Of a DNA stretch of 43,209 nucleotides, positions 3,513-43,209 are shown one piece after another. The first letter of the stretch is position 1; each line of letters starts with the position of its first letter. The stretch comes from a virus: IMG/VR virus record IMGVR_UViG_3300037264_004848, positions 1 through 43,209 of that record; one strand, written 5' to 3'. A program made the position numbers and the translations under genes. A model generated the notes under the pieces. That model worked only from the letters and a program-made list of their open reading frames with translations. It was not told the origin of the DNA and did no database searches.

Positions 3513-3515
3513 CGC

Positions 3516-4315: not shown

Positions 4316-4336
4316 GGCGATCGTGCTGGGGGTGCC

Positions 4337-5353: not shown

Positions 5354-5358
5354 AGCTC

Positions 5359-5688: not shown

Positions 5689-5697
5689 GGTGCTGTC

Positions 5698-6000
5698 ATG
5701 GCAAGCGAAATCCAGAAGCCAGGAGTGATCGAGGACCGCGTGGTGCAAGAGGTTCGCTCTTTGTTTCGGCTCGCAGCGAAGGGGGCTACTTCGCTTCGCG
5801 AAGCGATCGAGGCTCGCTCTGGCGGCGAGGCTGTGCTTCGCGAGCTCCTGGAGATTCGCGGTAAGCTGGACGAGCTCGAGCGGCGGATCGCCCGCCTTGA
5901 GATCGAGGCCTCCGCGCCGGGCGAGAAGGCGGCTATCTCCGAGCTCTCCGCTCGCGTGGGGGCCCTCGAGATCCTCTCCCAAAGGAAGGCGAAGCCGTGA
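5698..6000 (+). CDS. Coiled-coil protein
   Basis: 100 aa. Residues ~38-72 read as a strong heptad helix (LRELLEIRGKLDELERRIAR), followed by a second helix. It likely oligomerises. Base usage around 5790-5840 is slightly unusual, with a 14-base palindrome of alternating GCTTCGC. No function assigned. The stop overlaps the next GTG. Confidence 0.5.
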   Translation: MASEIQKPGVIEDRVVQEVRSLFRLAAKGATSLREAIEARSGGEAVLRELLEIRGKLDELERRIARLEIEASAPGEKAAISELSARVGALEILSQRKAKP

Positions 6001-6404
6001 GCAGCAGGACGAAGCTGACGCCGTCCGAGTGGTCCTCGCACGTCAACAACCTCGAGTTCCCGGAGCCGCTGATCGCGAACGTGTTCGGCCCGGTCGTGGT
6101 CGGAGTCATCGCGCGCGCGATCGCCTTCCGGCAGACGCAGGCGAAGGCCTTCGTGATCAGGCTAGGCACTGCGGGGACGAGCGGGACCACCCGCGTCGAG
6201 GTGCGCCGAAACGGTCAGCCCTTGCTGTTGTACGACGGCGCGCAGCTCTCGATCTCGAGCGCCGACCCTGACGGCACAGTGCGCGCGCTCTCGCTCGGCT
6301 CGGATCTCAACCCGAGCGACCTCGTCGAGATCGTCGTGCTCGAGGCGGCCGAGGGCGCTGAGGATCTCACCGCGGAACTCGACGTCGTCCGCCGCTTTTC
6401 GTAA
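5997..6404 (+). CDS. Beta-rich unknown protein, possible virion decoration
   Basis: 135 aa, GTG start in a GTGA overlap. From residue ~45 the chain alternates beta strands with Gly/Asp turns (VEVRRNGQPLLLYDG, then a strand-turn-strand up to AELDVVRRF), like jelly-roll or Ig-like phage decoration and baseplate proteins. The 136-aa protein at 31052, next to the portal, has a similar texture and ends in a similar strand pair. I cannot show homology. It is the last gene before the promoter at 6413. Confidence 0.4.
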   Translation: MSSRTKLTPSEWSSHVNNLEFPEPLIANVFGPVVVGVIARAIAFRQTQAKAFVIRLGTAGTSGTTRVEVRRNGQPLLLYDGAQLSISSADPDGTVRALSLGSDLNPSDLVEIVVLEAAEGAEDLTAELDVVRRFS

Positions 6405-6412
6405 CAATAGGC

Positions 6413-6442
6413 TTGACACCACAGAGCCATCCGCGTGAGGAT
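6413..6442 (+). promoter_or_regulatory. Sigma70-like promoter P2, leaderless
   Basis: TTGACA (6413-6418) is preceded by A/T-rich AACAATAGGC. With an 18-base spacer the -10 is GAGGAT (6437-6442), a weak match. Expected +1 is 6449, the A of the ATG of the ADP-ribosylglycohydrolase gene. No Shine-Dalgarno sequence is therefore available to that transcript. Confidence 0.6.
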
Positions 6443-6448
6443 CGATGC

Positions 6449-7477
6449 ATGAGCATACAAAAGAGGATTGAAGGCAGCTTGTACGGATTGGCGATCGGGG
6501 ACGCGCTCGGGTGGCCGGTGGAGTTCGCGAACGTCTCGCCGGCCGACCCGCAGGTGACCGACTTGATCACGCGCTACCGCGGAGCCGAGGAGCACGAGGC
6601 CCTCTTCACCGACGACACCCAGATGACGATCGCCGTCGCCGAGGGCCTGATCCGCGCCGGGACCACCGATGTCGATCGGGCCGCGGAGGAGGTGGCCGAG
6701 GAGTTCGTGGCCTGGCTGCGCAGCCCCGAGAACAACCGGGCCCCGGGCGGGTCGTGCCTGCGTGGATGCCGCGCGTTGGCCGATGGAGTCTCCTGGCGCG
6801 AGGCGGGCGTGGTCGGCGGGGGCGGCTGCGGCGCGGCGATGCGCTCGGCGCCCTACGGGTGGCTCCACCCCGGCGAGCCCGAGAAGGCGGCCGAGATCGC
6901 GGCCGAGCACGCTCAGATGACCCACCGCTTGGCCATGGCGCAGGCCTCCGCCGCCGCGGTGGCCGCGGGGGTCTCGGTGGCGCTCGTGACGGAGGTGTCG
7001 ACGGGGACGGGTGACTCTGACGTTCAGGATCCCTGGATGCCGATCGCGGTGGCGATGGTGGACGCCGCGATGGCCTACGATCACGGCACCGCCCGCATGC
7101 TGCTCCAGGCGATCAACGCCGCGACCCAGGAGGTCAGCCCGGTCACCGTCTTGGACAAATGGCGCGGCTGGGCCGGGCACGAGGCGGTGGCGGCGAGCCT
7201 CTACTGCCTGCTCTATCCCACCTCCCGCTTCAGCTACGAGTCCGCGGTCCTGCTCGCGGTGAACAGTCCGGGGGACTCGGACAGCCTCGGGTGCATCGCG
7301 GGCGCGATCCACGGCGCCCTCTTCGGGGTCGACGCTGTTCGTCCGGACTGGATCGCGAGGATCGAGAAGACCGAGTACCTCGGGCAGCTCGCCTCCCGGT
7401 TCGCCGCGTCGCTGGACAAGCGGGATCAACCCGAGCAGGAAGAAGGGACCGATGGCGGCCACCCCAACGTCCAGTAA
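6449..7477 (+). CDS. ADP-ribosylglycohydrolase (DraG/ARH family)
   Basis: 342 aa from the ATG at 6449. Family hallmarks are in order: GLAIGDALGWPVEF at ~14, the metal-binding DDTQMT at ~55-60, GGGCGAAMRSAPYG in the centre, HRLAMAQASAA helices, and the C-terminal GDSDSLGCIAGAIHGA with Asp276 and Asp278. The two Asp clusters bind the Mg2+ or Mn2+ ions that position ADP-ribose. The enzyme removes ADP-ribose from protein side chains or nucleic acid. In a phage it could undo ADP-ribosylation by host defence toxins or by phage-encoded transferases, but the substrate cannot be read from sequence. It follows a leaderless promoter and overlaps the next gene by 26 bases. Confidence 0.9.
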   Translation: MSIQKRIEGSLYGLAIGDALGWPVEFANVSPADPQVTDLITRYRGAEEHEALFTDDTQMTIAVAEGLIRAGTTDVDRAAEEVAEEFVAWLRSPENNRAPGGSCLRGCRALADGVSWREAGVVGGGGCGAAMRSAPYGWLHPGEPEKAAEIAAEHAQMTHRLAMAQASAAAVAAGVSVALVTEVSTGTGDSDVQDPWMPIAVAMVDAAMAYDHGTARMLLQAINAATQEVSPVTVLDKWRGWAGHEAVAASLYCLLYPTSRFSYESAVLLAVNSPGDSDSLGCIAGAIHGALFGVDAVRPDWIARIEKTEYLGQLASRFAASLDKRDQPEQEEGTDGGHPNVQ

Positions 7478-7940
7478 CGGAGCCACCCACGCGGAGCCCG
7501 CGCTCGACGCGCTTCGGTGCGAGTGCGCCTCGCCCCGCGATCCCGACGCCATCCACGCGTCCGGCTGCCCCTGGTGGCAGCAGCTCCAGAAGCTGCGCCT
7601 CACGAAGCCGCGACCAGTCTCGGAGGCCTACGCGTCCTTGTTCGGGGAGGGGTGCGCTCCGGAGCCCCGCCACGACGCGCCGTTGATCCCGGTGACGATA
7701 CCGGTCACCCATCGGTCCGGATACGTTCAGTACGAGCCGGCACCGAACCCAAGCGCTGCCCCCGCCGTCTGGGATCTCATCCAGAAGGACATCGCCGAGA
7801 GGGATGAGTTCGGGCGCCTGAAGTACGGAACTCGGCTTCGGCCACACAACGGGCGCGATTTTCTCGTGGACCTATACCAGGAGCTTCTGGACGCGATTGT
7901 CTACGCGAGGGGTGCGCTCTTCGAGAAGTACGGGAAGTGA
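7452..7940 (+). CDS. Phage protein with MazG-like C-terminal region
   Basis: 162 aa. The first ~100 residues include a Cys pair (CECASP then CPWW) and a Pro-rich linker. From ~108 the sequence DIAERDEFGRLKYGTRL, then NGRDFLVDLYQELLDAIVYAR, matches a segment frequent in phage proteins that are predicted all-alpha NTP pyrophosphohydrolases. The acidic ExxxD pattern on the last helix could bind Mg2+. A role in dNTP clean-up would fit the dCTP-deaminase-like gene 1 kb downstream. The short C-terminal domain may instead be only a structural helix pair. Confidence 0.45.
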   Translation: MAATPTSSNGATHAEPALDALRCECASPRDPDAIHASGCPWWQQLQKLRLTKPRPVSEAYASLFGEGCAPEPRHDAPLIPVTIPVTHRSGYVQYEPAPNPSAAPAVWDLIQKDIAERDEFGRLKYGTRLRPHNGRDFLVDLYQELLDAIVYARGALFEKYGK

Positions 7941-8328: not shown

Positions 8329-8895
8329 GTGGCGGAGTGGTTCTGGTACGTGTTCGGCGCTGCCGGCGTCCTGATCGCGGGCATTGTTTCGGCTTTGGCG
8401 GCGCGCAAGAAGCCCCCCGAGGCCGCGCAGATCCAGACCCCGCAGGGTGAGCTCCGATGGGAGAGGAAGCACCTCCCGATCCTGGTGGTGCTCGACCCGA
8501 CTGTTTACTTCTGGACGCCGGACGTCCGGGCAGCGATCGACTGGTGGAACCGGGAGCTCGGCTTCTTCGCCTTCGTGTTCGGCGACGAGCGCGAGGCGGG
8601 GTCCTTCCAGATGACCAGCACGCCGGGCATCGTGCCGATCGCGGCGAGCACCGCGCGGTTTCACACGCGGCTCTTTTGGGACGAGGCGGGGAAGATCCAG
8701 GCGGCGCCGATCCGCGTCTTCCCGCACGCGGACCCCGGGCTTCGCGAGCGGATCATCGCGCACGAGCTCGGGCACGTCGCCGGGCTCGAGCACGATCCCG
8801 AGATCACGGAGTCGGTCATGCACCCCGTGGCGTTGCCGTCGCCGTGGATCCTGACCGCGAACGATCGCGAGCGGCTGCGCAAGTTGTACGGATAA
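8329..8895 (+). CDS. Membrane-anchored metzincin-type metalloprotease
   Basis: 188 aa, GTG start. Residues ~4-24 form one transmembrane helix (FWYVFGAAGVLIAGIVSALA) followed by a basic ARKK stop-transfer. The catalytic zinc signature HELGHVAGLEH spans His145-His155 (ligands His145, His149, His155; catalytic Glu146), and a Met-turn SVMHP follows with Met164, as in matrixin-like metzincins. There is no propeptide. The topology would place the protease outside the membrane if the N-terminus stays in. It could cleave an envelope protein at entry, lysis or exclusion of other phages. A membrane-anchored metzincin is unusual in phages. Confidence 0.75.
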   Translation: MAEWFWYVFGAAGVLIAGIVSALAARKKPPEAAQIQTPQGELRWERKHLPILVVLDPTVYFWTPDVRAAIDWWNRELGFFAFVFGDEREAGSFQMTSTPGIVPIAASTARFHTRLFWDEAGKIQAAPIRVFPHADPGLRERIIAHELGHVAGLEHDPEITESVMHPVALPSPWILTANDRERLRKLYG

Positions 8896-8906
8896 GGGGA
8901 GAGAAG

Positions 8907-9446
8907 ATGCTCGGCAGGAATCAGATCCTCAAGGCCATCGATCAGGGGGACATTCTCATTGACCCGTTCACCATCGAGCACGTCGGACCGAACAGCGTCG
9001 ATCTCCGGCTCGGCGATCAGCTCTTCGTGCACGAGCTGAACGCGCTCGACATGAAGAAGGAACCCAAGGGGCGGATGCACACGATCCCGCTTTCTGGATT
9101 CTGCATGGAGCCTGGCGAGCTCTACCTCGGCGCCACGCTCGAGCGCGCGGGGTCCAAGAAGTATGTGCCGTGCATCGAGGGGAGGAGCTCGGTCGCGCGC
9201 CTGGGCCTCACGATCCACGCCTCGGCGGGTTTCGGTGATCGCGGATTTTTGGGAAATTGGACGCTCGAGCTGAGCGTGGTTCGGCCCCTCTGGATCTACG
9301 CCGGCGTGCGGATCGCGCAGGTTCACTTCTTCGTGACTGGGGATGATCCCGGCTCGGTATACGTCGGCAAGTACACCGACTACGAGGACCGGAGCCCGAA
9401 GCCCTCTCGCATGTATCGCGAGTTCACGGAGCCGGGTCGTGGCTGA
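8907..9446 (+). CDS. dCTP deaminase / dUTPase-superfamily enzyme
   Basis: 179 aa with a good GGGGAGAG ribosome site before the ATG at 8907. The trimeric dUTPase-fold motifs are visible: NSVDLRLGD near 31-39, GRSSVARLGL near 92-101, then an aromatic/Gly loop and NWTLEL with Glu121 in the place of the catalytic Glu of Dcd. It would deaminate dCTP to dUTP, or in the bifunctional type yield dUMP, supplying thymidylate synthesis. The usual HxTAxxIDPG segment is replaced by HASAGFGDRG, so substrate preference is uncertain. The possible MazG-like gene upstream fits nucleotide metabolism. It overlaps the next GTG start. Confidence 0.75.
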   Translation: MLGRNQILKAIDQGDILIDPFTIEHVGPNSVDLRLGDQLFVHELNALDMKKEPKGRMHTIPLSGFCMEPGELYLGATLERAGSKKYVPCIEGRSSVARLGLTIHASAGFGDRGFLGNWTLELSVVRPLWIYAGVRIAQVHFFVTGDDPGSVYVGKYTDYEDRSPKPSRMYREFTEPGRG

Positions 9447-15447: not shown

Positions 15448-15657
15448 ATGCTGCACCGGAAGCCGCACAAGGGAGATCGAGTCTCCTTTCCGCCGAGCAA
15501 GTACAGCCCGAAGGGCACGACGGGGATCGTGACCCGCACGCCGGAAGGCGACGATAACATCTGCTGGTTCTTGCCGGACGGGCAGAAGGAGCCGACCTGC
15601 TTCATCTGGCGATTCCCGGACGGGCGCAACGTGCTCGCAGAGCTGGAGGGCACATGA
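15448..15657 (+). CDS. Small SH3-like/KOW-like protein
   Basis: 69 aa. The layout KGDRVSFPPSKYSPKGTTGIV then NICWFLPDGQ and TCFIWRFPDG is a set of short strands with Gly turns, like small SH3/KOW-type barrels that bind nucleic acid or ribosomal partners. It has two Cys but no CxxC. It overlaps the start of the PHP gene by four bases. Confidence 0.45.
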   Translation: MLHRKPHKGDRVSFPPSKYSPKGTTGIVTRTPEGDDNICWFLPDGQKEPTCFIWRFPDGRNVLAELEGT

Positions 15658-16643
15658 AGATCGAGATGCATTGCCACTCTTTTGGATCTGACGGACACGG
15701 GAAGCCGAGCGAGTTCGTCGCCGCGGTCCAGAAGGCCGGCATCAACGGGCTCGTCCTGACCGACCACCACGCCAGCCTCACCCCCCAGGGGATGCTGGTG
15801 CTCCGCGCGCTGAAGGCGGCGGGGATCTTCGCGTGCATGGGCTGCGAGTACAGCACCGCGCAGGGCCACATCCTGATCTACGGAGTGAACGCGGCTCAGT
15901 TCGGTTGGGGCATGTACCCCGAGATGCAGCGGGTGATCGACGAGACCTGGAAGGCGGGAGGCGTCGCGATCCCGAGCCACCCGTACCGGGGCTACCGGAA
16001 GGTCCTGCGCGACGACGTCTACAAGATGGAGCGCCTGGTCGCGCTCGAGGTCCGGAACGGCCAGAATCAGACCCAGGGCTTCTGGAGCAGCGACGACGAG
16101 CCGGCCGAGAAGGCCCAGAAGCTGATCGGGCTCGCCGGCATCGGCGGCTCCGACGCGCACTGGCCGGAGGACATCGGGCTGTGCTGGACAGAGTTCGACG
16201 GCGACGTCCGAACCCGCGAGGAGCTGGTCGAGGCGCTGCGGAGCGGGAAGGGCTACCGCCCCGCGGTCAACGAAGAGAGGATCAAGAAGAAGCTCGCGCG
16301 CTGGACGCCGGCCAAGTTCCGCGCCGAGTCCGAGGCGATCACGTCCAGAACCAAGCCGACTACACCCCAGGTCACCGGCCGCACGGCCCTGGACCTCTTC
16401 GAGTGGGCGGCGCAGAATCGCGGCCCCGATGACGCTCCCGCCCAAAGGGAAGAAGACGAAGCGTACGCCCGTTCCCTGGCCGACTATGAGCTCTCCGGCA
16501 GCTTCGGAGACGAAGACGCAGGCAGCGCCGAAGTCGACTACCCAAGCTGGTTCGACGAAGCCGACGAGCTCCAGCGCTACCTCCGGGGCGCCCCCGAACG
16601 GAAGCAAGAAGGAAAAGCAAAAGGCCGCAAGCGCCGCCGCTGA
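15654..16643 (+). CDS. PHP-domain metal-dependent hydrolase
   Basis: 329 aa. The four classical PHP motifs are present: HCHSFGSDG (His6, His8, Asp13), TDHH (Asp37-His39), a Glu in GCEYS near 64, PSHPYRGY near 106-113, and GGSDAH (Asp167, His169). These ligands bind a trinuclear metal centre that hydrolyses phosphoesters. Standalone PHP proteins include nucleotide and histidinol phosphatases and DNA-processing enzymes, so the substrate is open. Residues ~260-329 are a charged extension (acidic, then a very basic KAKGRKRRR end) that shares its DNA with the start of the terminase gene in another frame. Confidence 0.8.
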   Translation: MKIEMHCHSFGSDGHGKPSEFVAAVQKAGINGLVLTDHHASLTPQGMLVLRALKAAGIFACMGCEYSTAQGHILIYGVNAAQFGWGMYPEMQRVIDETWKAGGVAIPSHPYRGYRKVLRDDVYKMERLVALEVRNGQNQTQGFWSSDDEPAEKAQKLIGLAGIGGSDAHWPEDIGLCWTEFDGDVRTREELVEALRSGKGYRPAVNEERIKKKLARWTPAKFRAESEAITSRTKPTTPQVTGRTALDLFEWAAQNRGPDDAPAQREEDEAYARSLADYELSGSFGDEDAGSAEVDYPSWFDEADELQRYLRGAPERKQEGKAKGRKRRR

Positions 16644-28360: not shown

Positions 28361-31042
28361 GTGGCGTCGCTCCTCGACAGACTGGCCGGCATCGGCAGCA
28401 TGACCGTCGAGCGCGCGCTCGGGGGCCTCGAGGGCATGCTCAAGGCGAACGGGGCGACAGCGCCGGTAGTCGAAGAGGCGAAGGACCCTCCGACCAGTCT
28501 TTTTTGGGATCCGTTCTCGATCATCGAGCAGCTTGGCTACAAGGAGAAGCCGGGCGCGATCACGTACGGAACGCTCCAGGCGATGGTGTGGCGACTCCCG
28601 CTGATCCACGCCATCATCCTCACGCGCATCAACCAGGTCGCTGCATTCGCGAGACCTCAGCGCGACCTCTTCCAGGTCGGCTTTCGCGTGAAGCTCGTCG
28701 ACAGCACGGCGAAGCCGTCACCCGCCGATCGCAAGTTCATCCGGCGCGCCGAGGACATGATCATGACCACCGGCGTGACGGACAACCCGATCATGCGGGA
28801 GGGCTTCGAGAAGTTCCTGCGCAAGGCCGTGCGCGACTCGATGACCCTCGACCAATGGTGTCACCCAGCCGGAACGAGCATCGAGACGCTCGGAGGCTAT
28901 CAGGCGATCGAAGAAATCGAGGTTGGGGATTTTGTCCGAACGCATACAGGGCGCCTGCGGCGGGTCGCGGAGCTGAAGCAGCGCAAGTATTCGGGGCTGA
29001 TGATTCGAGCGAAGGCTAGGGCGCAATCAATCGAGATGACCGCTGCGCATCCTATTCTTGCGATTAAGGATCGCTGGTTCAATCTGACCCCCAATCGTGG
29101 CCAAAAACCAGAATGGATCGACGCCTCGCAGCTGCGGGAAGGCATGTACCTTTGCTACCCCAAACCGAAGCTGAAGGTTGATCCTCAGGAGACGAAGGCC
29201 GGACCACTGACTTCAGAGATTGCTTGGATGCTCGGGTTGTATGTTGCGAACGGAAATACAGATCGAGGGCGATCGAAGCAACCTGGTGCTGGGGTTCAGT
29301 TCACGCTCAATGGGGCGGATGGGGCGATCGCGGATCGACTGGCGGCGGTGGGGACTGGGCTTGGATTCAAGGTGAGGATTACGACGTACGAAGATCGCTA
29401 CGCGATTCGCGTCGGCTTCGCAACGGGGTCCGCTGATTGGGGGGTTTGGTTCTGCGATGCATGCGGCCCTAATGCGGGAGCCAAGTACATCCCTTCTTTT
29501 ATCTGGACCGCGGAGCCAGAGCACCAGCGCTCGTTCTTAGCTGGGTATCTTGAGGGGGACGGTTGCTTCAAGGGAACGCGCGTGTCGTTCAATACAACTA
29601 GTCGGCAATTATTTCATGGATTGCGCACCTTGTTCGCGGCGCACGGAATGCTGGTTTCTGAAACTCGGATCTCTGAGGGAGGTTCTCCTGGTTCTGGATG
29701 GTCGGATCAAAGCTCTGGGCAGACGTCAGGCCCGGCGTATCGTGCGTTCGCGCGAGAGCAGGGGCTTCCGGTTGTTGATCCTCCAAAAAAGAGAGCGGCG
29801 TGGATTGAAGACGCTGATTTTTATTATCTGCGGATCAACGAAGTGGCGCAGTGGGAAGTCGAAGATCTTCCAGTCTACAACTTCGAGGTCGAAGTCGATC
29901 ACAGCTACGTGGCGAATGGGTTCGTGAGCCACAACTGCTTCGAGGTCGTCAAGAACCGGAAGGGGCAGCCGGCCGCGTTCTACGCAGTGGACGGCAGCAC
30001 GATCCGCCTCGCTGACACCGCGAGCGTCTACTTTGACGAGAACGCGGTCACCGAAGAGGCGTACACCGTCCAGATCTACGACGGCATGGTGATCCGCGAG
30101 TGGGCCCGGGACGAGATGGCCTTCTGCATCCGCAACCCGTCCACCTCGATCCGTAACTACGGGTACGGGATCGCCGAGGCGGAGATGCTGGTCACCACCA
30201 TCACGCAGCTCCTCTGGTCGATCGAGTACAACAGCAAGTTCTTCCAGCAGGGCAGCGCCGCGAAGGGGCTGCTCAACATCAAGGGTCCGATCAACCAGAC
30301 CCAGCTCGATGGCTTCCGGCGCATGTGGTACCAGATGGTTTCAGGCGTCGAGAACGCGTGGCGCACGCCCGTCCTCAACAGCGAGGAGGTGCAGTGGATC
30401 CCGATGCACTCCAGCAACCGGGACATGGAGTTCTCGGCCTTCATGGATTTCCTGATCAAGGTCGCTTGCGGTGTATTTCAGATGGATCCGATCGAGGTCG
30501 GGTTCAAGTACGGCAACCAAGGTCAGCAGCGCTCGATGTTCGAGGCCGCGAACAAGCAGAAGCTGATGGAATCGAAGGACAAGGGCCTCAAGCCCCTCCT
30601 TCGATTCATCGCGCGGAACCTCACCAACTACGTGATCCGTCCGATCGACCCGGACTTCGAGCTCGAGTTCGTGGGCCTCGAGGCGCAGACGCACGACGAG
30701 CTCGCCAAGCTGAACGCGCAGCGCGTGAAGACCACGCACTCCGTCAACGAGCTCCGCGCCGAGTACGATCTCCCGCCGATCGAGGGCGGCGACATCATCC
30801 TCGATCCCGTCTTCGCGCAGGCGCTCCAGATGGCCAAGATGGCGGAGCAGGGGCTCGATGCGAGCGGCCAGCCGATCGGCGCGGGCTCGGACCAAGCCGG
30901 CGCGGGTGACCACAACAACGACGGCAAGACGGACGAGAACGCGGCCAACCACGACTTTGGTCCGGAGGACTTCGAGGCGCTCGAGGGTCCGGACGACATC
31001 GAGCCGGAGGCCAAGAAGGCGCTTCTGGACTTCGAGTTTTAG
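28361..31042 (+). CDS. Portal protein interrupted by an intein
   Basis: 893 aa as encoded; removal of the intein (residues 167-525) leaves 534 aa, normal for a portal. GTG start with a purine-rich leader. N-extein: helical, with WRLPLIHAIILTRINQVAAF and a clip/stem-like region. C-extein: EVVKNRKGQPAAFYAVDG, then WSIEYNSKFFQQGS and FRRMWYQMVSGVENAWRTP, features of SPP1/HK97-type portals (12-mers at the capsid vertex through which TerL pumps DNA). The C-terminus (~800-893) is acidic and disordered. It lies directly after the 1331-aa polyprotein gene, with a short protein gene next. Confidence 0.85.
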   Translation: MASLLDRLAGIGSMTVERALGGLEGMLKANGATAPVVEEAKDPPTSLFWDPFSIIEQLGYKEKPGAITYGTLQAMVWRLPLIHAIILTRINQVAAFARPQRDLFQVGFRVKLVDSTAKPSPADRKFIRRAEDMIMTTGVTDNPIMREGFEKFLRKAVRDSMTLDQWCHPAGTSIETLGGYQAIEEIEVGDFVRTHTGRLRRVAELKQRKYSGLMIRAKARAQSIEMTAAHPILAIKDRWFNLTPNRGQKPEWIDASQLREGMYLCYPKPKLKVDPQETKAGPLTSEIAWMLGLYVANGNTDRGRSKQPGAGVQFTLNGADGAIADRLAAVGTGLGFKVRITTYEDRYAIRVGFATGSADWGVWFCDACGPNAGAKYIPSFIWTAEPEHQRSFLAGYLEGDGCFKGTRVSFNTTSRQLFHGLRTLFAAHGMLVSETRISEGGSPGSGWSDQSSGQTSGPAYRAFAREQGLPVVDPPKKRAAWIEDADFYYLRINEVAQWEVEDLPVYNFEVEVDHSYVANGFVSHNCFEVVKNRKGQPAAFYAVDGSTIRLADTASVYFDENAVTEEAYTVQIYDGMVIREWARDEMAFCIRNPSTSIRNYGYGIAEAEMLVTTITQLLWSIEYNSKFFQQGSAAKGLLNIKGPINQTQLDGFRRMWYQMVSGVENAWRTPVLNSEEVQWIPMHSSNRDMEFSAFMDFLIKVACGVFQMDPIEVGFKYGNQGQQRSMFEAANKQKLMESKDKGLKPLLRFIARNLTNYVIRPIDPDFELEFVGLEAQTHDELAKLNAQRVKTTHSVNELRAEYDLPPIEGGDIILDPVFAQALQMAKMAEQGLDASGQPIGAGSDQAGAGDHNNDGKTDENAANHDFGPEDFEALEGPDDIEPEAKKALLDFEF
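28859..29935 (+). mobile_element. Intein with LAGLIDADG endonuclease domain, in the portal gene
   Basis: 359 codons inserted between Trp166 and the +1 Cys526. Block A starts CHPAGTSIETLGGYQAIEEI, block B is EMTAAHPIL, and the C-terminal blocks are VYNFEVEVDHSYVANG then FVSHN followed by Cys. Cys1, the block B His, the penultimate His, terminal Asn and +1 Cys are all present, so class-1 splicing looks intact. The homing domain has GYLEGDG (intact Asp) but LGLYVANG in the first motif, where Asn replaces the usual acidic residue, so cutting may be weakened. GC is visibly lower than in the flanking exteins, suggesting recent arrival. Confidence 0.9.
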
Positions 31043-33028: not shown

Positions 33029-36000
33029 GTGCGGCTCCTGACGCGCGATCAGCTTTTGGAGATCAAGGAAATTATCCGCCGGCACCACGCGGCGGTGATC
33101 GTGTCCGTCGCGGGCGCCACCGCGCTCTCCGAGGCCGACAAGCATCTTCTGGTCTCGGCCGGCATCCAGCCAGAGGAGCTCGGGACGATCGAGGAGAGCT
33201 ACCTCTTCGGTCGGGTGCTCGCGATGCGGCCGAAGGCGTCAAAACTCTCCTACCCCGACTTCAAGAGCCTGCTCGAGAAGAACCCGGTCCCGCTCACGGA
33301 GCACGAGGAGGCGGCGGTCAACGCTGCGCGCCACTCGGCCGGAACCCATATTCAGAATCTTGGGATGAGGATCGATTCTGACGTCACGCAATCCATCCTC
33401 GAGCAGGACGCGTCCCTGAGGGCCGAGCGCATCGACTCAGTCCGCGAGCACGTGGCGGAGGCGATCGCCAAGCGCGAGGGCATCCAGGCGCTCAGGAAGC
33501 GGCTGGGGGACTCGGTCGGGAGCTGGAACCGGGACTGGATCCGGGTGGCGGTCACCGAGCGGGCGCAGGCCATGAACCAGGGCAGCGCCGACGTCATCCA
33601 AGATCAGCACGGGGCGGAGTCGTACGTCTTCAAGAGGCCGCAACCCGGGGCGTGCGAGCATTGCCTGGCTCTATTCCTGGGACCGGACGGGCACCCGCGC
33701 ATCTTCAAGCTGAGCGAACTGACCGCGCACGGGCACAACCACGGGCGCAAGGCGAAGGATTGGCTGCCCACGATCGCCCCCGTGCATCCTCACTGCCGGT
33801 GTACCCTCGAGCGCGTTCCGCCCGGCTGGGGCTTCGACGAGTCCGGCGACCTCGTGCCCGGCGGGACCGGCGGGCGGCGCTACGAGTCGGCCGAGGAGAT
33901 CGAGCTCGCGCTCACCGGCGAGGCCGAGCTCCAGAAGGCGGGACGGGTTCGCGGTCGTCTCAACTACCGCGGGCTCCCCATCGCGATCGAGAATCCCGCC
34001 GGGAGCGTCCGGAAGTGGCGCGGTGGCGAGACGACGATGCTCGTCCCCTACGGCTACGTCGAGGGGACGCTGGGCGCGGACGGCGACGAGTACGACGCGT
34101 ACGTGGGCCCCGATCCCCTCGCCGAGTTCGTCTACGTGATCGATCAGGCTGATGGGGACGGCGGTTTCGACGAGCAGAAGGCGATCGTCGGCGCCTCCGA
34201 CATCCACCAGGCGCGGGCGATCTACCTCGCGCACCGGGACGACGGCGAGGCCGCTCTGCAGTCGATGGCGATCCTCCCGTTCGAGGAGTTCCGGGCCAAG
34301 GTGCTCGGGACCGGCAAGCCGGGGCTCATGCAGGACGGGCTCGTGAAGTCTCCCTCAAACGGGGCGGGCTATTTGAAGGATCGCGTGTTCTTTCTTCCAG
34401 AAGGCTTGGATCCTGAAGCACCGCTCCAGAAGGCCCTGAACGCGGAGCACGCGGCGGACGGGTCCCAGTGGGGCAACCGGTCCGTCCGAGGGACTCCGAA
34501 CCTCGGCTTCGGCTACGGGCGCACGGCGGGCGAGTCGGCGCGCACCAAGGCGGACGTTGCGTTCCCGGTCGAGGAGCTCGCGGAGCCGTACCCGCTCCTC
34601 TACGTGCCGATCAAGGACCCGACCATCTACGAGCCCGGCGAGCGCGAGCGGCAGGTGCGGCCGGTCGAGGTCCCCGACGGCTGGGCCGAAGCGCAGCAGT
34701 CCGTGCGCGACGAGGCGGGGCACAACGCGTTCGTGCTGGTCGAGACGGCGAAGCGGAGGGCGAAGGGTCGGATCACGAACTACGCCGACGTCGAGGCCGA
34801 AGAAGTCCAGAAGGCCGAGAAGGGCGAGCAGGTCTCGGGGCACAAGTACACCGAGCGCGAGTGGATGGTGGACCACTGGGCCTATACGTACGCGGCCGAG
34901 CGGGGCGGCAAGATCGAGGGGCACGCGATCGACCTGGACGCGGTCATTCTCAAGTTGCCGAAGGCGAAGCTCGCCGAGCTCAAGGCGTTCGCCCAAAAGC
35001 ACCACCTCGCGCACGAGCCGTTCGAGGGCGGCAAGTACGCCATGGTCCAGCTCAGCCAGTCCGAGGCGCATCAACTCCGGCAGCTCGCGCAGGCGAAGAA
35101 GCCCGCGGTCGTGCAGCAGGCCGAGGTCCAGAAGCCAGCCACAAAGAAGCAGGATTTTTGGAAGGGGGAGCCGGTCGACCAGAAGGATCTTTCTCTCCCC
35201 GCAACAAAACTCCTCCAGGCCGGGCAGGGCGTGACCGCAACGATCGGCGGCAAGGCGGTCAGCGGGCAGCTCGAGGGCTGGGACTACCAAGGCCGAGCCG
35301 TCATTCGCGCCGAGGGTCAGCGGCGGATCGCGAAGTTCTCGGACGTGAAGCCGAGCGGCGACAAGCAGCCGCAGAAGCGAAGCTACGACAAGCTCCAGAA
35401 GGGGCAGATCGTGCGCGCCACCGAGCGGCACCAGAAGCTAGTCAACGAGATCGTGGCCGAGGAGGTGCTTCCCGGGCGCCAGGCGTCGGCATATCTCGGA
35501 TGGCTCCACCAGCGCGGGATCGAGGCGTACCTGGTGGGTGGTGTGGTGCGCGATCTGATCGCCGGCACCTCGTCGGGACTCACTGACGACGAGGTCAAGG
35601 AGAAGATGAGGGACGTGGACATCGTGGCGGCGGCCCCACCGATGGTGGGCGTTAAAATGTTCGCCGAGCACCCCGTGGCTGGCGGCAAGAGCTACAACCA
35701 GGCCGGCGGTGTTTGGTCGGACGCGGGTAAGTGGGGGATGGTTCTCGCGGGCGGTGCGAAGGGCGGGTTCGGCAACCGCGAAGAGGGGCTCGACTACGCG
35801 AGCATGCTCTCCGCCGGAGCCTTCCAGCCCGTGATTCAGAATCAGGATGCTCCGGCCGAGCCGGACGTCGCCCCGCTCGACTTCGACCACGACATCCAGA
35901 AGGACGCGCGTCGCCGCGACTTCAGCGTGAACAGCCTTTACTATGATCCCCACAACCACGCGATCCTGGATCCCACCGGCTACGGCATCGAGGACGCCCA

Positions 36001-36379
36001 GAAGAAGCATCTTCGCGTCATCGCCGGTGACAAGGAATTGGTCGGGAACCACAACATCAGTTTTCGCTTCTGGAAGTTCAGGATTCGCGGCTACACTTCG
36101 GACAAGGAGAATATCCAGAAGATGCGGGACAGCTTCGCGCACTTCGCTGCGCACGGAAACGACTGGATGTCAGCGGAGAAGCTGATCATCACCGAGGCCG
36201 TGAAGGCGTGCGGGAAGGTCTGCAAGACGCCTCAGGACTTCCTCACCAATCTGCGAAAGGTGATGACGGAGGATGGCTGCGCGGATCTTTACGACAAGCA
36301 CGTTTTTCCTCTCGAGGACCAGATCAAGGCCGTCGCGAAGAAGGAAGCCACCAAGCTGCTCCTGCATGGGAGCGCCTGA
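33029..36379 (+). CDS. MuF/SPP1 gp7-type head protein fused to pyrophosphatase and nucleotidyltransferase domains
   Basis: 1116 aa, GTG start. Domain order: helical arm (1-160); gp7/MuF minor-head region (~163-262) with WIRVAVTERAQAMNQG and the Cys-His cluster HPHCRCTLERV; inorganic-pyrophosphatase-like domain (~307-435) with RGLPIAIENPAGSVRKW, YGYVEGTLGADGDEYDAYVG and VYVIDQ; an unknown middle with a WGNRSVRGTPNLGFGYGR segment (~480-500) and GGKIEGH (~628); and a CCA-adding/poly(A)-polymerase-like transferase (~818-1040) with VGGVVRD, the metal pair Asp862/Asp864 in DVDIV, RRRDFSVNSL and ILDPTGYGIED. MuF-type proteins are packaged and may be ejected, so the enzymes could act in the infected cell. 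Pyrophosphatase would pull the transferase reaction by removing PPi. The substrate (host tRNA 3' ends or other RNA) is unknown. Confidence 0.75.
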   Translation: MRLLTRDQLLEIKEIIRRHHAAVIVSVAGATALSEADKHLLVSAGIQPEELGTIEESYLFGRVLAMRPKASKLSYPDFKSLLEKNPVPLTEHEEAAVNAARHSAGTHIQNLGMRIDSDVTQSILEQDASLRAERIDSVREHVAEAIAKREGIQALRKRLGDSVGSWNRDWIRVAVTERAQAMNQGSADVIQDQHGAESYVFKRPQPGACEHCLALFLGPDGHPRIFKLSELTAHGHNHGRKAKDWLPTIAPVHPHCRCTLERVPPGWGFDESGDLVPGGTGGRRYESAEEIELALTGEAELQKAGRVRGRLNYRGLPIAIENPAGSVRKWRGGETTMLVPYGYVEGTLGADGDEYDAYVGPDPLAEFVYVIDQADGDGGFDEQKAIVGASDIHQARAIYLAHRDDGEAALQSMAILPFEEFRAKVLGTGKPGLMQDGLVKSPSNGAGYLKDRVFFLPEGLDPEAPLQKALNAEHAADGSQWGNRSVRGTPNLGFGYGRTAGESARTKADVAFPVEELAEPYPLLYVPIKDPTIYEPGERERQVRPVEVPDGWAEAQQSVRDEAGHNAFVLVETAKRRAKGRITNYADVEAEEVQKAEKGEQVSGHKYTEREWMVDHWAYTYAAERGGKIEGHAIDLDAVILKLPKAKLAELKAFAQKHHLAHEPFEGGKYAMVQLSQSEAHQLRQLAQAKKPAVVQQAEVQKPATKKQDFWKGEPVDQKDLSLPATKLLQAGQGVTATIGGKAVSGQLEGWDYQGRAVIRAEGQRRIAKFSDVKPSGDKQPQKRSYDKLQKGQIVRATERHQKLVNEIVAEEVLPGRQASAYLGWLHQRGIEAYLVGGVVRDLIAGTSSGLTDDEVKEKMRDVDIVAAAPPMVGVKMFAEHPVAGGKSYNQAGGVWSDAGKWGMVLAGGAKGGFGNREEGLDYASMLSAGAFQPVIQNQDAPAEPDVAPLDFDHDIQKDARRRDFSVNSLYYDPHNHAILDPTGYGIEDAQKKHLRVIAGDKELVGNHNISFRFWKFRIRGYTSDKENIQKMRDSFAHFAAHGNDWMSAEKLIITEAVKACGKVCKTPQDFLTNLRKVMTEDGCADLYDKHVFPLEDQIKAVAKKEATKLLLHGSA

Positions 36380-36606
36380 TGATCCCGGTCGTCACGATCT
36401 ACAAGAAGGCTGATGGTGTGTACCGCGCGCCCGACTTCCCGTTCACCGATCACGGCGACATCGTCGAGCTGGACGAGACGCAGGCGACGCAGATCGACGT
36501 CGAGGTCCGCGTGCGCGGCGCGCCAGTCAAGATGAGGGCCTGGACGCTAGGCACTGACGACGAGTGCCACATCGATTACAAGCAGTACAGCTCGCTGTTC
36601 GGGTGA
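36379..36606 (+). CDS. Small beta-rich protein
   Basis: 75 aa in a TGATG overlap with the fusion gene. Mostly strands (VVTIYKKADGVYRAP, IVELDETQATQIDVEV) with an aromatic end (YKQYSSLFG). It may be a small head or neck component. No family recognised. Confidence 0.5.
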   Translation: MIPVVTIYKKADGVYRAPDFPFTDHGDIVELDETQATQIDVEVRVRGAPVKMRAWTLGTDDECHIDYKQYSSLFG

Positions 36607-37037: not shown

Positions 37038-37046
37038 TCTCGCGGC

Positions 37047-40000
37047 GTGGTCAAGTCAGCGCACGATGATCCGGTCATGTCTGCGTTCTTCAAGGCGGCC
37101 GGCGTAAAGGGAACAAAGGACTTGACAAAAGGGTCGGTCAAACTGAAGATCCCGGCCACAACCATGACGGGCACGCTCGCCGACCAAAAGGGGAAGATCA
37201 AGTTCAAGCCGCAACCGGCGCACGCCTTCGAGGAGCTGTCCAAGGCTGACTCCACGAAGGTCGCGCACCACACCATCAACTACGGCTACTGGAAGCACAT
37301 GCCGATCATCGCGCGCGGCCCTAAGGGCGGGAAGATCGTTGGCTACAGCAAGGGCAAGCCGATCTACGCCGGCACGCACGAGGCCGAGCAGCTCGCCCAG
37401 GTGCACGGCGAGCACGCGCAGCACGGGCACGTTCTGGACAAGGCGCTGGGTCTCGCCAAGGATTGGCTGAAGCAGCTCGGGATCCTCGCGAGCGTGGATC
37501 AAGCCGCGACGCCGTCCGTGATTCGCGTGAGCCCCGAGGACGGCAAGGCGCTCTCGGACGCGTTCGGCATCCATCCGGATAGCGTGACCACGCACGCCGC
37601 TACCTTCAAGTACGAACAGCTCAAGTCTCACGTCGGACACCCGCTCAAACCACGCCCGGAGGAGATGCTCCACTACGGCGCCAAGGTCGCGAGCGGGGAC
37701 CACGAGCACGACCCGTTCCCGGACCTCAAGACGCTCAAGTTGATCGAGGCCGGCAAGTTCAAGGGCTCGCACGACAACACGCTGTGGCAGGCACCCGACG
37801 GCCGGCGCTTCCTGTTCAAGAGCAAGGATCCGACCATCGCGCGCGCAGAGGAGGCGGTCTCGCGGATCGCCCGCTTCGTGCTCCCGAAGAAGGTGCCCGC
37901 CGCGCGTTACGTGAAGCTCCACGGCAGCGACGGCGCGCTGATCGAGGTGCTCGAGGGCCATGAGGCGGATCCAGCACACCAACTTTTAGATGACGCCTTC
38001 TACCAGACGCACTTCGCGGACCTCATCCAGCACCAGGTTCTGGACTGGCTCGTCTCCAACCACGACAGCCACAGCGGCAACATGCTGGTGCAGCCGGACG
38101 GTACCCTCGTCGCGATCGATAAGGGCCAGGCGTGGAAATTCATCACCAAGGACAAGCTGGCCGCGGACTACAAACCGCCGAACCCGAGCCCGCCGATCTA
38201 CAACCGGCTCTGGGAGCTGTTCCAGCAGAACAAGATCCTGGGATCGCCGGTCCCGTACGTCCAGGAGGCCGTCAACCGAGCGGCCGAGATGTCCGAGGAC
38301 CAGTACCGCGCGCTGATCGGTCCCTACGTGGCTACGCTCGCCGGCGGCACCGAGCAGGATCCCAAGCAGATCGAGGCCCGGCTGCTCGCGCGCTTCCAGG
38401 CGCTGCGTTCGGACTGGGAGAAGTTCCTCTCCAAGATGGAGGGGGCACCAGTCACGCTCTCCTCTGTCCAGAAGCCCGTCCCGAAGGAACCGCCGCCGGC
38501 GATGATCATCCCGCTCGAGCCGGTCGCGGCTCCCAAGCCGAAGGAGCCCGTGAAGGCCCCCGCCCCCTTCGGCCAGAAGGTGGCCGGCTGGCCGGTGAAG
38601 AAGGGCGCGGTCACGATCCACCATCCCGGCTCGATCGCCCCGACTGGCTGGGCGAAGGGCTACCCAGGTCCTGGGTTCAGGGCCGAGGTCGTCTACAAAG
38701 GCAAGCCGTTCCAGATCTCCTTCGACGCCGTCGGCGGGAAGCTCGAGGCCTTCGTCGAGTACCCGGACGGGACCAAGGCCAACTTCGACTCGCCGAACAA
38801 GGCGACCGACTCCTTCTATCTGTGGTCGAACGGCCTGCCGCTCACCATGAGCTCGACCGAGAAGAAGGCGAAGAAGATCTCGTACAGCCCGACCAAGATG
38901 CTCCAGCTCGACAAGTTCCAGGCGGAGCTGGCGGGCGTGGGCCTCGAGTCGACCAAGCCGGCGAGCAGCAAGACGGTGGCCGAGATCGAGACCGAGTCCC
39001 CGGGCACCCAGCACCAGGCCGAGCTCAGCGCGTACCACGTGACCGGGGCGATGCCGGACGGTCTGGTCACGGATCCTGGATCGCTGCCGTGGGACGTCCA
39101 GAACCACCTCAAGAACCACGCGCAGACCAAAGTCGGGCCCCAATGGGAGGGCCAGCTCGCACCCGGCTACGCGGTGAAGAAGCAGCTGGGGGACCCCGGC
39201 AAGGGCCCGGTCATCATCCTAGCGAGCTACTACTCGGATCAGGGACCCGCGTACAAGACTTGGGCGATCGCGCCGAGCGGCGACGTCGACATGACGGGCG
39301 ACTGGATTGCATCCGCCCTGCCTTCGTTCATCAAACCGGCGATCGCAGCGGCCGATGTCCAGAACGTCACCAAGGCCAAGATCCAGAACACGCAGACGAT
39401 TGACGAGAAGCAGGGCCAGTCCCCGATCGCGGAGCCCCAACCGAAGGCGAAGGTCAGCGAGCCCAAGATCAAGCAGGCGACCAAGGGTCCTCTCGCTGCG
39501 GGCACCGTGGTGAAGGTCAAGAAGAAGTTTCAGGACGGCAAGGAGAAGGAGATCGAGCTCCACGCGCTGCCGGATGGTTCGTTCAGCTTGTTCGTCCCGA
39601 AAGATCAGGGCACCGAGCAGACCACGCACAAGACCATCAGCAGCGCGGCGAAGCACGCGTGGGTCGCGACCAAGGGCTACGGCTCGGTCGCGAACTACGA
39701 ACTCGGCGTGAAGAAGAAGGCCCCCGGCGTGAACTGGCCCTTCTTCGGGCTCAAGAGCGCCCCGGCTCCCGCTCCTGCCCAAGAGGCGCCCGCCTCGCTC
39801 CAGGTCACTCCAACGGCCCCCAAGGAGCCCGGAGAGGCCAACTGGGAGGCCATGCCGCCGCCGCAGGAAACGAGCTGGTGGGCGAACCAGCCGCTCGGCA
39901 CCATCGTCGAGTACAGCGACGACGCGGGCGCTAAGAACGTGGCCACCAAGACGGTCACGGGCTGGTCCGTCAGCGTGAACGGCGGTGCGCCGTACCACGA

Positions 40001-43000
40001 GAAGCACTCCGAGATCAGCAGCAACGCGAGCATCGCGGACGCGATCGTGGTGAAGAAGCCCGAGCCCGAGCTCGAGTACGAAGAGCCGCAGCACGCGGGC
40101 GCGCTCGCCCCGAGTCCAGAAGTCCCCGTCCCGAGCGGCTTGCCGCTCCAGCAGATCACGCAGGTCAAGGAGCTCGAGGCGCTCAAGCCCGGCGCCGTCG
40201 TCCTGTTCGCTCATACTCAAGCCGGCTGGCAGGGGATCTATGAGAAGCAGCCAGACTACGGCTGGAAGTCGAGTAAGACCGGTGCGATCTTTACCCCAGA
40301 TCAGTTCGCTGTGCTCTTCGCGGATGGCAAGATCAGCCTCGTCCACGATCCCGGCAACGTTATCTCCGCTCCAGAACCCAAGCCGGAGCCCCAAGTCCCG
40401 AAGACGGCCCTCCAGACCAGCCAGCATCCCGCGAGCGAGTGGTCGAAGATGGACTTCTGGCTGAAGCTCGCCGATGAGGCGAAGAAGGGGGTCAGCTGGA
40501 TCGCGCTCTGGAAGCACGACGATGATGACTACTCAGTCACGCCGAACCCGGAGTGGGTGCAGCACGGGACGAGCAAGCCGTTCTTGATCCAGTACCCCAC
40601 GGGGGGCACTCCCGTCCCGTCCGTCATCAGCATCCCGACCGAGCTTCCCGGGATCCCGTCGTTCATCGACAAGGTCGGCGTTCCGCTCCACCTAGCCAAG
40701 ACGCCGGCCAAGAGTCCAGAAGCCAAGACCGAACCAGGCGCGAGCAACTGGGCCTGGTTCGAGGGCAAGGACGAGACCGAGGTGAAGGGGCACCTGATCG
40801 GCCTCCCGGTCGGCGCGCAGATCAAGTTCACCAGCGAGGCGGGTGGCAGCACCTACGCGTGGACCGCGACCAAGACCTCGGGCCTCGAGTTCAGCTGGGT
40901 GATGCAGGGCGCAGGCACTCCGGCCGTGCAGTCACCGAACCAGTTCCCGATCGACGGCTTGTCCAAGCTGATCGCCTTCGCCCACGACAAGGGCGGCGCG
41001 GGCGGCAAGTACCAGTACCACTCGGCCCCCGAGGCAGCTCCGACCGTCCCGAAGTCAGCGTACGCGACGAAGGTGCACGCGGAGCTCCCGGTCAAGGGCG
41101 CGATCGGGCCGCAGCTCGCGAAGTCCATCGAGGACATGCAGGCGGTGAAGAACCAGGTCGGCGGCACCGCGGCCGACAAGCCCGCCACCTGGGCGCCCTG
41201 GATCCCGCCCCCCGGCGTCTGGATCGAGGGCTCCTTCCAGGGCAAGCCGGTCTACCTGACCACCGCGGTCTCGGGCTACACCGGCGGCGGAGAGCCGGGC
41301 ACGAAGGTCAAGTTCGCGCTGGTCACCGAGGACGGCACCGTGCACCTCAGCAAGGAGGTCCCGCACGAGATCGCCACCAGCGCCGTGCTCGAGCTGGTCG
41401 ACAAGCTGACCGCTCCGAGCCTCATCACGTCTCAGGGCGTGTTTCCGGGCTTCATCGACAACGTGTTCGCCGCGGGCGAGTCCGCAGCGAGCCTCAAGCC
41501 CGGCCACGTTCCGAGCGCGAATTACCCGCCGACCGCGGCCCCGGGCGACCTCACTCCGGCCCAAAAGACCGGCACCGTCAAGAAGACGATGGCCGCGGGC
41601 GAGTACGTCAAGCCCTTTCTTTCAAAATATCCAGAAGTCAAGCTCAAGAAGGCCGGCAAGGTCGGGCACACCAACATCATCATCGAGAGCCCGTCTGATT
41701 TCGTCTCAGCCAGCCAGGATCTCCAGAAGCTCGCCACCCTGTGCGGCCTGACCATCACCAACAGCGGTGGCGTGCCCGGCAAGTTCTACAGCAGCCCGGT
41801 CATCACCATCAAAGACTCCGACCTCCAGAAGCAGGTCACGGTCGAGGTGGAGGGGATCGAGGCGGCGAGCCAACCACCACCGCAACCGGCCTACCAGAAG
41901 ATCCAGGTCGGGCAGGTGTTCACAGGCAGCAGTCAGGACAAGCAGAACGCGCTCAACGCGCTGCCGGTCGGGGCCGTGGTCGGGGTGCCGCAGGGCGACG
42001 ACGAGTACAAGCACGCGCTGGCGGGCCACGCTTGGATCAAGGACACAAGCGGCGAATGGTCCAAGACGCTGAGCGCTCCGCCAGAGGCCTACGCGTACCC
42101 GAGCCTCGGCTATGTCGCGGGCACGGTCGGCCTCCACCTTCAGTCCCTGCCGGGCGAGCCCGGAAAGAAGTCACCCGACAACTTCGAGACCATGCCGGAG
42201 AGCGTGGCGACGGAGAGCAAGCAGCACCCGAAGAAGCTGTTCGAGAGCTGGTCGCAGAAGAAGATCGCGGAGCACCTCAAGGCGCTGCCGGTCGGCACCA
42301 AGCTGCAAACCAAGAGCGCGACCCACTTCGTCAAGAAGTCGGAGCACGCGTGGACGCACCACTACAACGAGTTCGACGCGGGCATCCAGAAGAACGCGCT
42401 CGGCATCGCGGCGGACGTGCAGCACGCCAAGGGCGCCACGGTCATCCTGCCGGGCATGCCGTCCGCACCGGCGGCACCGAAGGCGAAGCCGATCGCTCCG
42501 TACGTCCCTGACCCGGAGCAACAGAAGAAGATCGAGCAGGCGAAGAAGGTCGCGGAGTGGGCCAAGCAGCACACCGCGATCAGCGCCGAGACGCAGGCTC
42601 ACCTGAGTCACCTCGCGCCGGGCGGCAGCTTCTACGCGAGGGAGGACCTCGCGGCCGGCGTGATCCTCCTCGGTGATGGGACCGAGGGCTGGGCCAAGGA
42701 GATCACCAAGCACGGCATCCCGGCGATCCCGGTCCAGACCCCGCTCGGAACGCTCTTCTCGGTCAGCAAGGAGGTGCTCAAGAAGGCTACTCCGGGCAGC
42801 ACCAAGATTACCGGCCCCGACGGCGTCGAGTACCCGCACGGGACGACCTTCGAGACCACCAGCACGACCCCCACGCTCAAGGAGGCGCTCCAGGGCGAGG
42901 AGGGCTTCAGCAAGCTGGCCGAGCACCTCACCGACAAGAAGCTCACGATGGTGAAGCTCGGGGGCGCGGGTGACGAGCAGAAGAAGAAGGCCGAGCAGCT

Positions 43001-43209
43001 CATCCAGAAGTACGGCATCCCGAACAGCTTCGTGATCAAGGGGACCGCGTACACGATGTTCTCGTGCCCGACGGCGATGCTCCAGCAAGAGGTCGGCAAG
43101 CCGATCGTCGAGGTGAAGGCGAAGGTCCCGCCGCAACCGAAGCCGTTCGTGCCGAAGGCGCTCCCGCTGGCTGGCGGCGCGCTGCTCTCAGGGCAGCCGG
43201 CACCGAACA
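37047..43209 (+). CDS. Giant modular protein with kinase-like domain, open at the right edge
   Basis: Open for 2,054 codons from the GTG at 37047 (ATG 37077 also possible) with no stop before the window ends. Domain order: residues ~93-110 GGKIVGYSKGKPIYAG linker module; ~235-370 a kinase-like domain with FLFKSKDP (possible nucleotide-binding Lys), the catalytic-loop-like LDWLVSNHDSHSGNML (~331-346) and the metal-binding-like VAIDKG (~354-359), the arrangement of HipA/PI4-kinase-like enzymes; then many beta-rich modules of about 70-90 residues separated by Pro/Lys/Ala linkers, several sharing a LPVGT or LPVGA strand and W-containing turns. Probably virion-associated and perhaps ejected. The kinase target is unknown, and the C-terminus is missing. 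Confidence 0.65.
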   Translation, partial: MVKSAHDDPVMSAFFKAAGVKGTKDLTKGSVKLKIPATTMTGTLADQKGKIKFKPQPAHAFEELSKADSTKVAHHTINYGYWKHMPIIARGPKGGKIVGYSKGKPIYAGTHEAEQLAQVHGEHAQHGHVLDKALGLAKDWLKQLGILASVDQAATPSVIRVSPEDGKALSDAFGIHPDSVTTHAATFKYEQLKSHVGHPLKPRPEEMLHYGAKVASGDHEHDPFPDLKTLKLIEAGKFKGSHDNTLWQAPDGRRFLFKSKDPTIARAEEAVSRIARFVLPKKVPAARYVKLHGSDGALIEVLEGHEADPAHQLLDDAFYQTHFADLIQHQVLDWLVSNHDSHSGNMLVQPDGTLVAIDKGQAWKFITKDKLAADYKPPNPSPPIYNRLWELFQQNKILGSPVPYVQEAVNRAAEMSEDQYRALIGPYVATLAGGTEQDPKQIEARLLARFQALRSDWEKFLSKMEGAPVTLSSVQKPVPKEPPPAMIIPLEPVAAPKPKEPVKAPAPFGQKVAGWPVKKGAVTIHHPGSIAPTGWAKGYPGPGFRAEVVYKGKPFQISFDAVGGKLEAFVEYPDGTKANFDSPNKATDSFYLWSNGLPLTMSSTEKKAKKISYSPTKMLQLDKFQAELAGVGLESTKPASSKTVAEIETESPGTQHQAELSAYHVTGAMPDGLVTDPGSLPWDVQNHLKNHAQTKVGPQWEGQLAPGYAVKKQLGDPGKGPVIILASYYSDQGPAYKTWAIAPSGDVDMTGDWIASALPSFIKPAIAAADVQNVTKAKIQNTQTIDEKQGQSPIAEPQPKAKVSEPKIKQATKGPLAAGTVVKVKKKFQDGKEKEIELHALPDGSFSLFVPKDQGTEQTTHKTISSAAKHAWVATKGYGSVANYELGVKKKAPGVNWPFFGLKSAPAPAPAQEAPASLQVTPTAPKEPGEANWEAMPPPQETSWWANQPLGTIVEYSDDAGAKNVATKTVTGWSVSVNGGAPYHEKHSEISSNASIADAIVVKKPEPELEYEEPQHAGALAPSPEVPVPSGLPLQQITQVKELEALKPGAVVLFAHTQAGWQGIYEKQPDYGWKSSKTGAIFTPDQFAVLFADGKISLVHDPGNVISAPEPKPEPQVPKTALQTSQHPASEWSKMDFWLKLADEAKKGVSWIALWKHDDDDYSVTPNPEWVQHGTSKPFLIQYPTGGTPVPSVISIPTELPGIPSFIDKVGVPLHLAKTPAKSPEAKTEPGASNWAWFEGKDETEVKGHLIGLPVGAQIKFTSEAGGSTYAWTATKTSGLEFSWVMQGAGTPAVQSPNQFPIDGLSKLIAFAHDKGGAGGKYQYHSAPEAAPTVPKSAYATKVHAELPVKGAIGPQLAKSIEDMQAVKNQVGGTAADKPATWAPWIPPPGVWIEGSFQGKPVYLTTAVSGYTGGGEPGTKVKFALVTEDGTVHLSKEVPHEIATSAVLELVDKLTAPSLITSQGVFPGFIDNVFAAGESAASLKPGHVPSANYPPTAAPGDLTPAQKTGTVKKTMAAGEYVKPFLSKYPEVKLKKAGKVGHTNIIIESPSDFVSASQDLQKLATLCGLTITNSGGVPGKFYSSPVITIKDSDLQKQVTVEVEGIEAASQPPPQPAYQKIQVGQVFTGSSQDKQNALNALPVGAVVGVPQGDDEYKHALAGHAWIKDTSGEWSKTLSAPPEAYAYPSLGYVAGTVGLHLQSLPGEPGKKSPDNFETMPESVATESKQHPKKLFESWSQKKIAEHLKALPVGTKLQTKSATHFVKKSEHAWTHHYNEFDAGIQKNALGIAADVQHAKGATVILPGMPSAPAAPKAKPIAPYVPDPEQQKKIEQAKKVAEWAKQHTAISAETQAHLSHLAPGGSFYAREDLAAGVILLGDGTEGWAKEITKHGIPAIPVQTPLGTLFSVSKEVLKKATPGSTKITGPDGVEYPHGTTFETTSTTPTLKEALQGEEGFSKLAEHLTDKKLTMVKLGGAGDEQKKKAEQLIQKYGIPNSFVIKGTAYTMFSCPTAMLQQEVGKPIVEVKAKVPPQPKPFVPKALPLAGGALLSGQPAPN

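Follow-up and report, generated by a model that had tools for sequence, protein, structure and literature searches.

A phage head-region protein joining MuF-type, pyrophosphatase and class II nucleotidyltransferase modules, the last without its nucleotide-template motif

A fusion gene and its relatives

The window considered here is a metagenomic phage record of 43,209 bases (IMGVR_UViG_3300037264_004848), in which a single gene on the plus strand (33029..36379, GTG start) encodes a protein of 1116 residues. From its N- to its C-terminus this fusion protein comprises a MuF-type minor head module, an inorganic pyrophosphatase (InPase), a linker, an SH3-like barrel and a class II nucleotidyltransferase (NTase). 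Pfam recognizes InPase PF18823 (4.9e-27), PolyA_pol PF01743 (7.7e-15) and Phage_Mu_F PF04233 (2e-5), and the corresponding stretches match PHROGs families of minor head proteins, tRNA nucleotidyltransferases and head morphogenesis proteins. A previous sequence-only reading of this DNA had proposed a chain of MuF, InPase and NTase domains, which is borne out by the Pfam matches and by the recurrence of the architecture in a second phage. Structure prediction and profile searches agree, leading from the InPase model to solved pyrophosphatases and from the NTase model to CCA-adding enzymes. The open reading frame (ORF) is real and uninterrupted: each block of 100 codons has a GC content at third positions (GC3) between 0.82 and 0.95, and stop-free runs in 200 shuffles of the window extend to 531 codons at most, so that the fusion can be regarded as one continuous coding sequence. 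These two tests, together with the repeated architecture in the relatives described below, rule out misassembly or a chance ORF.

Three relatives were recovered from IMG/VR with alignments; scans with single sequences (whole protein, NTase) had come back empty since the chosen peptides are not conserved. Locus L007 (IMGVR_UViG_3300009515_000156) carries the same MuF-InPase-linker-SH3-NTase order in 1092 residues and is 36% identical to the fusion overall. L080 encodes InPase, linker, SH3-like barrel and an NTase of 45-46% identity, and is cut by the contig end. In L085 the NTase forms the C-terminus of a different protein of 1530 residues in which no InPase was found, and a separate MuF-like gene lies downstream. 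By inspection, a kinase-like region also appears to be fused to the NTase within this L085 protein (3209-7798), whereas the window has its kinase-like region on another gene, the giant ORF. In a tree with 48 standalone enzymes, from which most motif D columns were left out, the four NTases group as a single clade (100/100), although long branches meet within it. Neither plasmids nor 50,697 annotated phage records contain a match to the fusion; among bacterial genomes, the best 80 loci hold only single NTase domains. Three further candidates, L142 to L144, were set aside because they fail the RRDF pattern; by inspection L142 and L143 keep xDPLR and L144 is a fragment. L143 (6740-10960) joins its canonical NTase, with xDPLR kept, to a 2H/LigT-type phosphoesterase in a phage protein of 1407 residues.

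Retained catalytic residues and a replaced template motif

The NTase head spans about residues 816-1000 (35474..36028, plus strand), and its profile match to PF01743 scores 55.8 bits against a cut-off of 23. A structural model of residues 715-1116, computed from a 50-row alignment, reaches a mean predicted local distance difference test (pLDDT) of 81.6 and a predicted template modelling score (pTM) of 0.84; among PDB structures it comes closest to CCA-adding enzymes (E about 1e-8) and to bacterial poly(A) polymerase. A profile built from the four fusions likewise matches solved CCA enzymes. The motifs named in the sequence-only reading are all present, namely GGVVRD at 837-842 (motif A, with G837, G838, R841 and D842), D862/D864 of the DxD motif and RRRDFSVNSL at 961-970 (motif B, with R962, R963, D964 and F965), and are accompanied by D922. 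GGxxR, DxD, a third acid (in LDxAS or VDxAS), RRDF[ST]xN and DPxG are invariant in all four NTases, although their identity is only about 30-46%. The fusion shares its head fold and the GGxxRD, DxD, RRDF and DPxG motifs with the class II CCA-adding enzymes and poly(A) polymerases of PF01743.

The fusions differ from these enzymes at motif D, the amino-acid template that bonds the incoming base and for whose Asp and Arg in vivo selection gave no substitutes (PMC11784652). At its position, residues 1007-1013 (36047..36067, plus strand), the fusion reads NHNISFR instead of EDxxR, and the four NTases show NHNIS, NKTLG, NQNIA and HKNIA, respectively. In a common alignment with the fusions, xDxxR is found in every one of the 46 standalone phage enzymes and in E. 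coli PcnB and Cca; 80 of 82 bacterial-genome ORFs have it too, the remaining two not being NTases by inspection. When the four-fusion profile is aligned to its best-matching solved CCA enzymes, the alignment stops just short of motif D. A mere shift of the motif was rejected, since inspection finds EDxxR nowhere else in the NTase segment.

The losses extend beyond the template. The neck region, supported by model helices and the alignment, covers about residues 1001-1112 (36029..36364, plus strand), and the nearly invariant Arg of its RxxxE motif is, by inspection, Leu in the fusion. The body and tail domains, which hold the tRNA, are absent, as the chain ends about 100 residues past motif D with only neck helices in the model. 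The fusion is further set apart from class II CCA and poly(A) enzymes by its joining to head modules and by a longer stretch between motif A and DxD. Since motif D is lost and body and tail are missing, ordinary addition of CCA or A is improbable and tRNA repair unlikely; the CCA-adding or poly(A) activity put forward in the sequence-only reading is therefore not supported.

Pyrophosphatase, head module and gene neighbourhood

The type I InPase occupies residues 308-424 (33950..34300, plus strand) and is identified by PF18823, by conserved columns and by a structural model that matches solved pyrophosphatases. It keeps D351/D353/D356, D381, K384, E321 and Y341; the underlying active-site pattern, an acidic metal-binding DxDxxD followed by DExK, with E and Y ahead of it, is maintained in eleven relatives and conforms to the phage-type family. 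The catalytic residues of the InPase and the NTase head thus look as intact as had been claimed, both falling on conserved columns across relatives. This InPase type and its fusions to virion proteins have already been described (PMC5512222), and a profile comparison leads to the C-terminal InPase domain of portal gp19 from Pseudomonas phage Pa193 (PDB 9b41; E 3.1e-43). There, a domain of the same family is joined to a head protein, but to the portal itself and without an NTase. The Pa193 virion map shows no density for residues 529-765, InPase included (PMC11042391), and hence the structure is no proof that the InPase stays in the virion.

An integrated machine in which the InPase serves the pyrophosphate (PPi)-releasing NTase had also been suggested. 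Eight relatives (L006, L009, L013, L025, L027, L036, L008 and L014, the last two cut at contig ends) carry the InPase on a MuF chain in which no NTase was detected; in L020, L047 and L060 it is a separate gene adjoining the MuF gene, and the L085 NTase comes without an InPase. Because each domain occurs without the other, neither an obligate PPi-coupled machine nor an InPase dedicated to the NTase is supported. From their distribution, the two are independent modules that follow the mix-and-match pattern of polyvalent proteins; removal of PPi may help the NTase, yet it is not the reason for the presence of the InPase. One of the MuF proteins, in L013 (2395-8025, 1877 residues), additionally carries a PAPS reductase and an ADP-ribosyltransferase beside its InPase.

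Between InPase and barrel the model shows a mostly disordered linker from about residue 429, a region without relatives in phage records or Pfam. It is followed, after a stretch of low pLDDT, by a small alpha/beta domain at about residues 612-692 (34862..35104, plus strand; pLDDT 86-96), which matches no family and is conserved in L007 and L080. The SH3-like barrel (about residues 734-776; 35228..35356, plus strand) is drawn from modelled strands with pLDDT 82-94 and gives weak matches of the biotin-ligase C-terminal type; by inspection, segments resembling it stand before the NTase in L007, L080 and L085.

The MuF-type module itself (residues 1-282; 33029..33874, plus strand) bears a CxxC...HPHCRC motif and is recognized by PF04233 and by phage homologues, being 31-36% identical to phage proteins of like length. 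The closest comparison, 36% over 282 residues, is with a Lysinibacillus herellevirus protein encoded near its portal gene, and an alignment search found 67 relatives in IMG/VR. Upstream lies the portal protein gene (28361..31042, plus strand). The order portal, 139-residue gene, MuF protein, 159-residue gene and giant ORF is partly common to L007, L006 and L080. The claim of a head protein thus agrees with the portal gene upstream and the MuF module at the N-terminus, a setting typical of polyvalent proteins, which lie among virion or late genes and often include a MuF or portal module. Judging from gene order and homology, the fusion is encoded in the head-gene region, and its packaging into the virion is predicted. 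The portal gene contains an apparent intein at about residues 167-523 (Hint and LAGLIDADG matches, ending HN|C), which is not present in the portal relatives of L007, L006, L013, L014 and L025. Intein-like inserts also interrupt the MuF module within its HPxC-RC motif in L019 (222-2201), L044 (5989-7953) and L070 (1726-3642).

A 75-residue ORF (36379..36606, plus strand) starts on the stop codon of the fusion and is a possible cognate partner of the NTase. Each of the three relatives likewise has a small ORF directly after its NTase gene, of 88 residues in L007, 74 in L080 and 73 in L085. Local alignment of these proteins beats shuffles in 500 of 500 trials for L007/L080, 498 of 500 for window/L080 and 492 of 500 for window/L007; by the same measure the L085 ORF shows no relation to the other three, and profile searches return weak matches. 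The NTase-less L006, which shares the adjoining gene, is without the small ORF. A weak match of the 75-residue ORF to AbiEi (E 0.013) was treated as chance. A partnership with the NTase is suggestive only.

Further downstream, a giant open frame of at least 2056 residues (37041..43208, plus strand), common to L080 and L006, runs off the window. Kinase-like motifs stand near its start (SNHDSHSGNMLV ... IDKGQAW); it has no Pfam match, and its L080 homologue gives a weak kinase match. The same record encodes an ADP-ribosylglycohydrolase, a dCTP deaminase and a PHP-domain protein at 6413-7477, 8457-9446 and 15654-16643. No tRNA gene was found in the window.

A candidate virion-delivered nucleotide transferase

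The multidomain chain in the head region, with MuF and InPase joined to a further enzyme, resembles the phage polyvalent proteins (Iyer et al., 2017; PMC5512222), for which injection with the DNA has been proposed and fusions are a described delivery theme. Several effector domains per chain, another property of this group, are seen here as InPase and NTase in one ORF, and again in L007 and L080. The earlier survey names no CCA/poly(A)-type NTase domain (it mentions neither CCA nor polyA) and reports a pol-beta NTase only in conjugative-element proteins. We propose, with confidence that is evenly balanced, that the fusion is a polyvalent virion protein whose cargo, probably delivered to the host, includes a nucleoside monophosphate (NMP) transferase with changed specificity. 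Homology and gene order make the MuF module a minor head component, which would position the chain within the capsid close to the portal, from where the attached enzymes would enter the host along with the DNA. Going by its conserved residues, the NTase head would move NMP from a nucleoside triphosphate to an acceptor and release PPi. With the motif D template for the choice of C or A gone, and with neither body nor tail, it probably does not build CCA ends, and would instead add a nucleotide, with other or loose specificity, to the 3' end of an RNA or to some other acceptor in the host, which would change RNA or translation of the host in the early phase of infection. The InPase, a separately acquired module, may draw the reaction forward or break down nucleotide signals, and the small downstream ORF might, on weak evidence, restrain the NTase in the producing cell. 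More tentatively, the NTases could represent a virion-delivered subfamily that keeps class II catalysis but has its C/A template replaced. As infection begins, such enzymes would attach some other nucleotide to RNA or protein of the host, accompanied by a pyrophosphatase on the chain and by an adjacent gene for a small cognate regulator.

Several points weigh against this proposal. It builds on domain content, recurrence, the clade and the residues lost and retained; virion packaging, injection, nucleotide transfer, its target and regulation by the small ORF are steps that we infer. There are only four sequences, the loss of motif D was probably a single event because they form one clade, the flexible loop is poorly modelled, and the L085 NTase lacks the Asp of GGxxRD. 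The Phage_Mu_F match (residues 137-260) stays just under its curated cut-off, although the MuF assignment stands because of the 36% identity to the Lysinibacillus phage protein and the 67 relatives.

The alternatives share part of this evidence. The protein could be an injected machine for CCA or tRNA 3'-end repair, with the InPase removing PPi, that counters host defences damaging tRNA ends. The class II fold and catalytic motifs are those of such enzymes, jumbo phages with CCA-adding enzymes for RNA repair have been described (PMC7824862), and a defence that cuts CCA tails exists in Cas12a3, to which no viral counter is known (PMC12851939). The link to this defence is attractive, but it is disfavoured by the loss of motif D, whose irreplaceable residues (PMC11784652) are absent from all four NTases. 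As body and tail are missing, the window lacks a tRNA gene and the InPase is separable from the NTase, we find the repair reading unlikely. An equally small likelihood attaches to a catalytically dead NTase kept as an RNA-binding or structural module: the missing motif D, neck Arg, body and tail and the incomplete GGxxRD of L085 would fit, but DxD, the third acid, RRDF and DPxG are invariant through deep divergence, which is not expected of a dead domain, and the retained catalytic acids argue against it.

Somewhat better placed, but still doubtful, is the reading of the NTase as a polymorphic-toxin domain with MuF as its carrier: it would block host RNA, for example by unwanted addition to tRNA ends, and the small ORF would encode its immunity protein. 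The MuF polymorphic toxins (PMC5576092) resemble the fusion in their MuF N-terminus, variable C-terminal enzyme and usual small downstream ORF, here of 73-88 residues after each NTase gene, and nucleotidyltransferase toxins that lengthen the acceptor end of tRNA are known in MenT (PMC10435456). However, the fusion has no known toxin domain, its NTase lies outside known toxin families, and MuF toxins are tied to temperate phages. Moreover, the similarity of the small ORFs is weak and does not extend to L085, and the NTase-less L009 also has an unrelated small ORF.

Altogether, the virion-protein proposal extends the cargo of phage head proteins by a nucleotidyltransferase. The analysis also delimits a class II NTase clade that has lost the amino-acid template still found in its standalone relatives. 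If active, these enzymes would show how nucleotide choice is rewired within the NTase superfamily. They would also represent an RNA- or protein-modifying effector that is delivered ahead of phage gene expression, with a bearing on tRNA-based phage defences.
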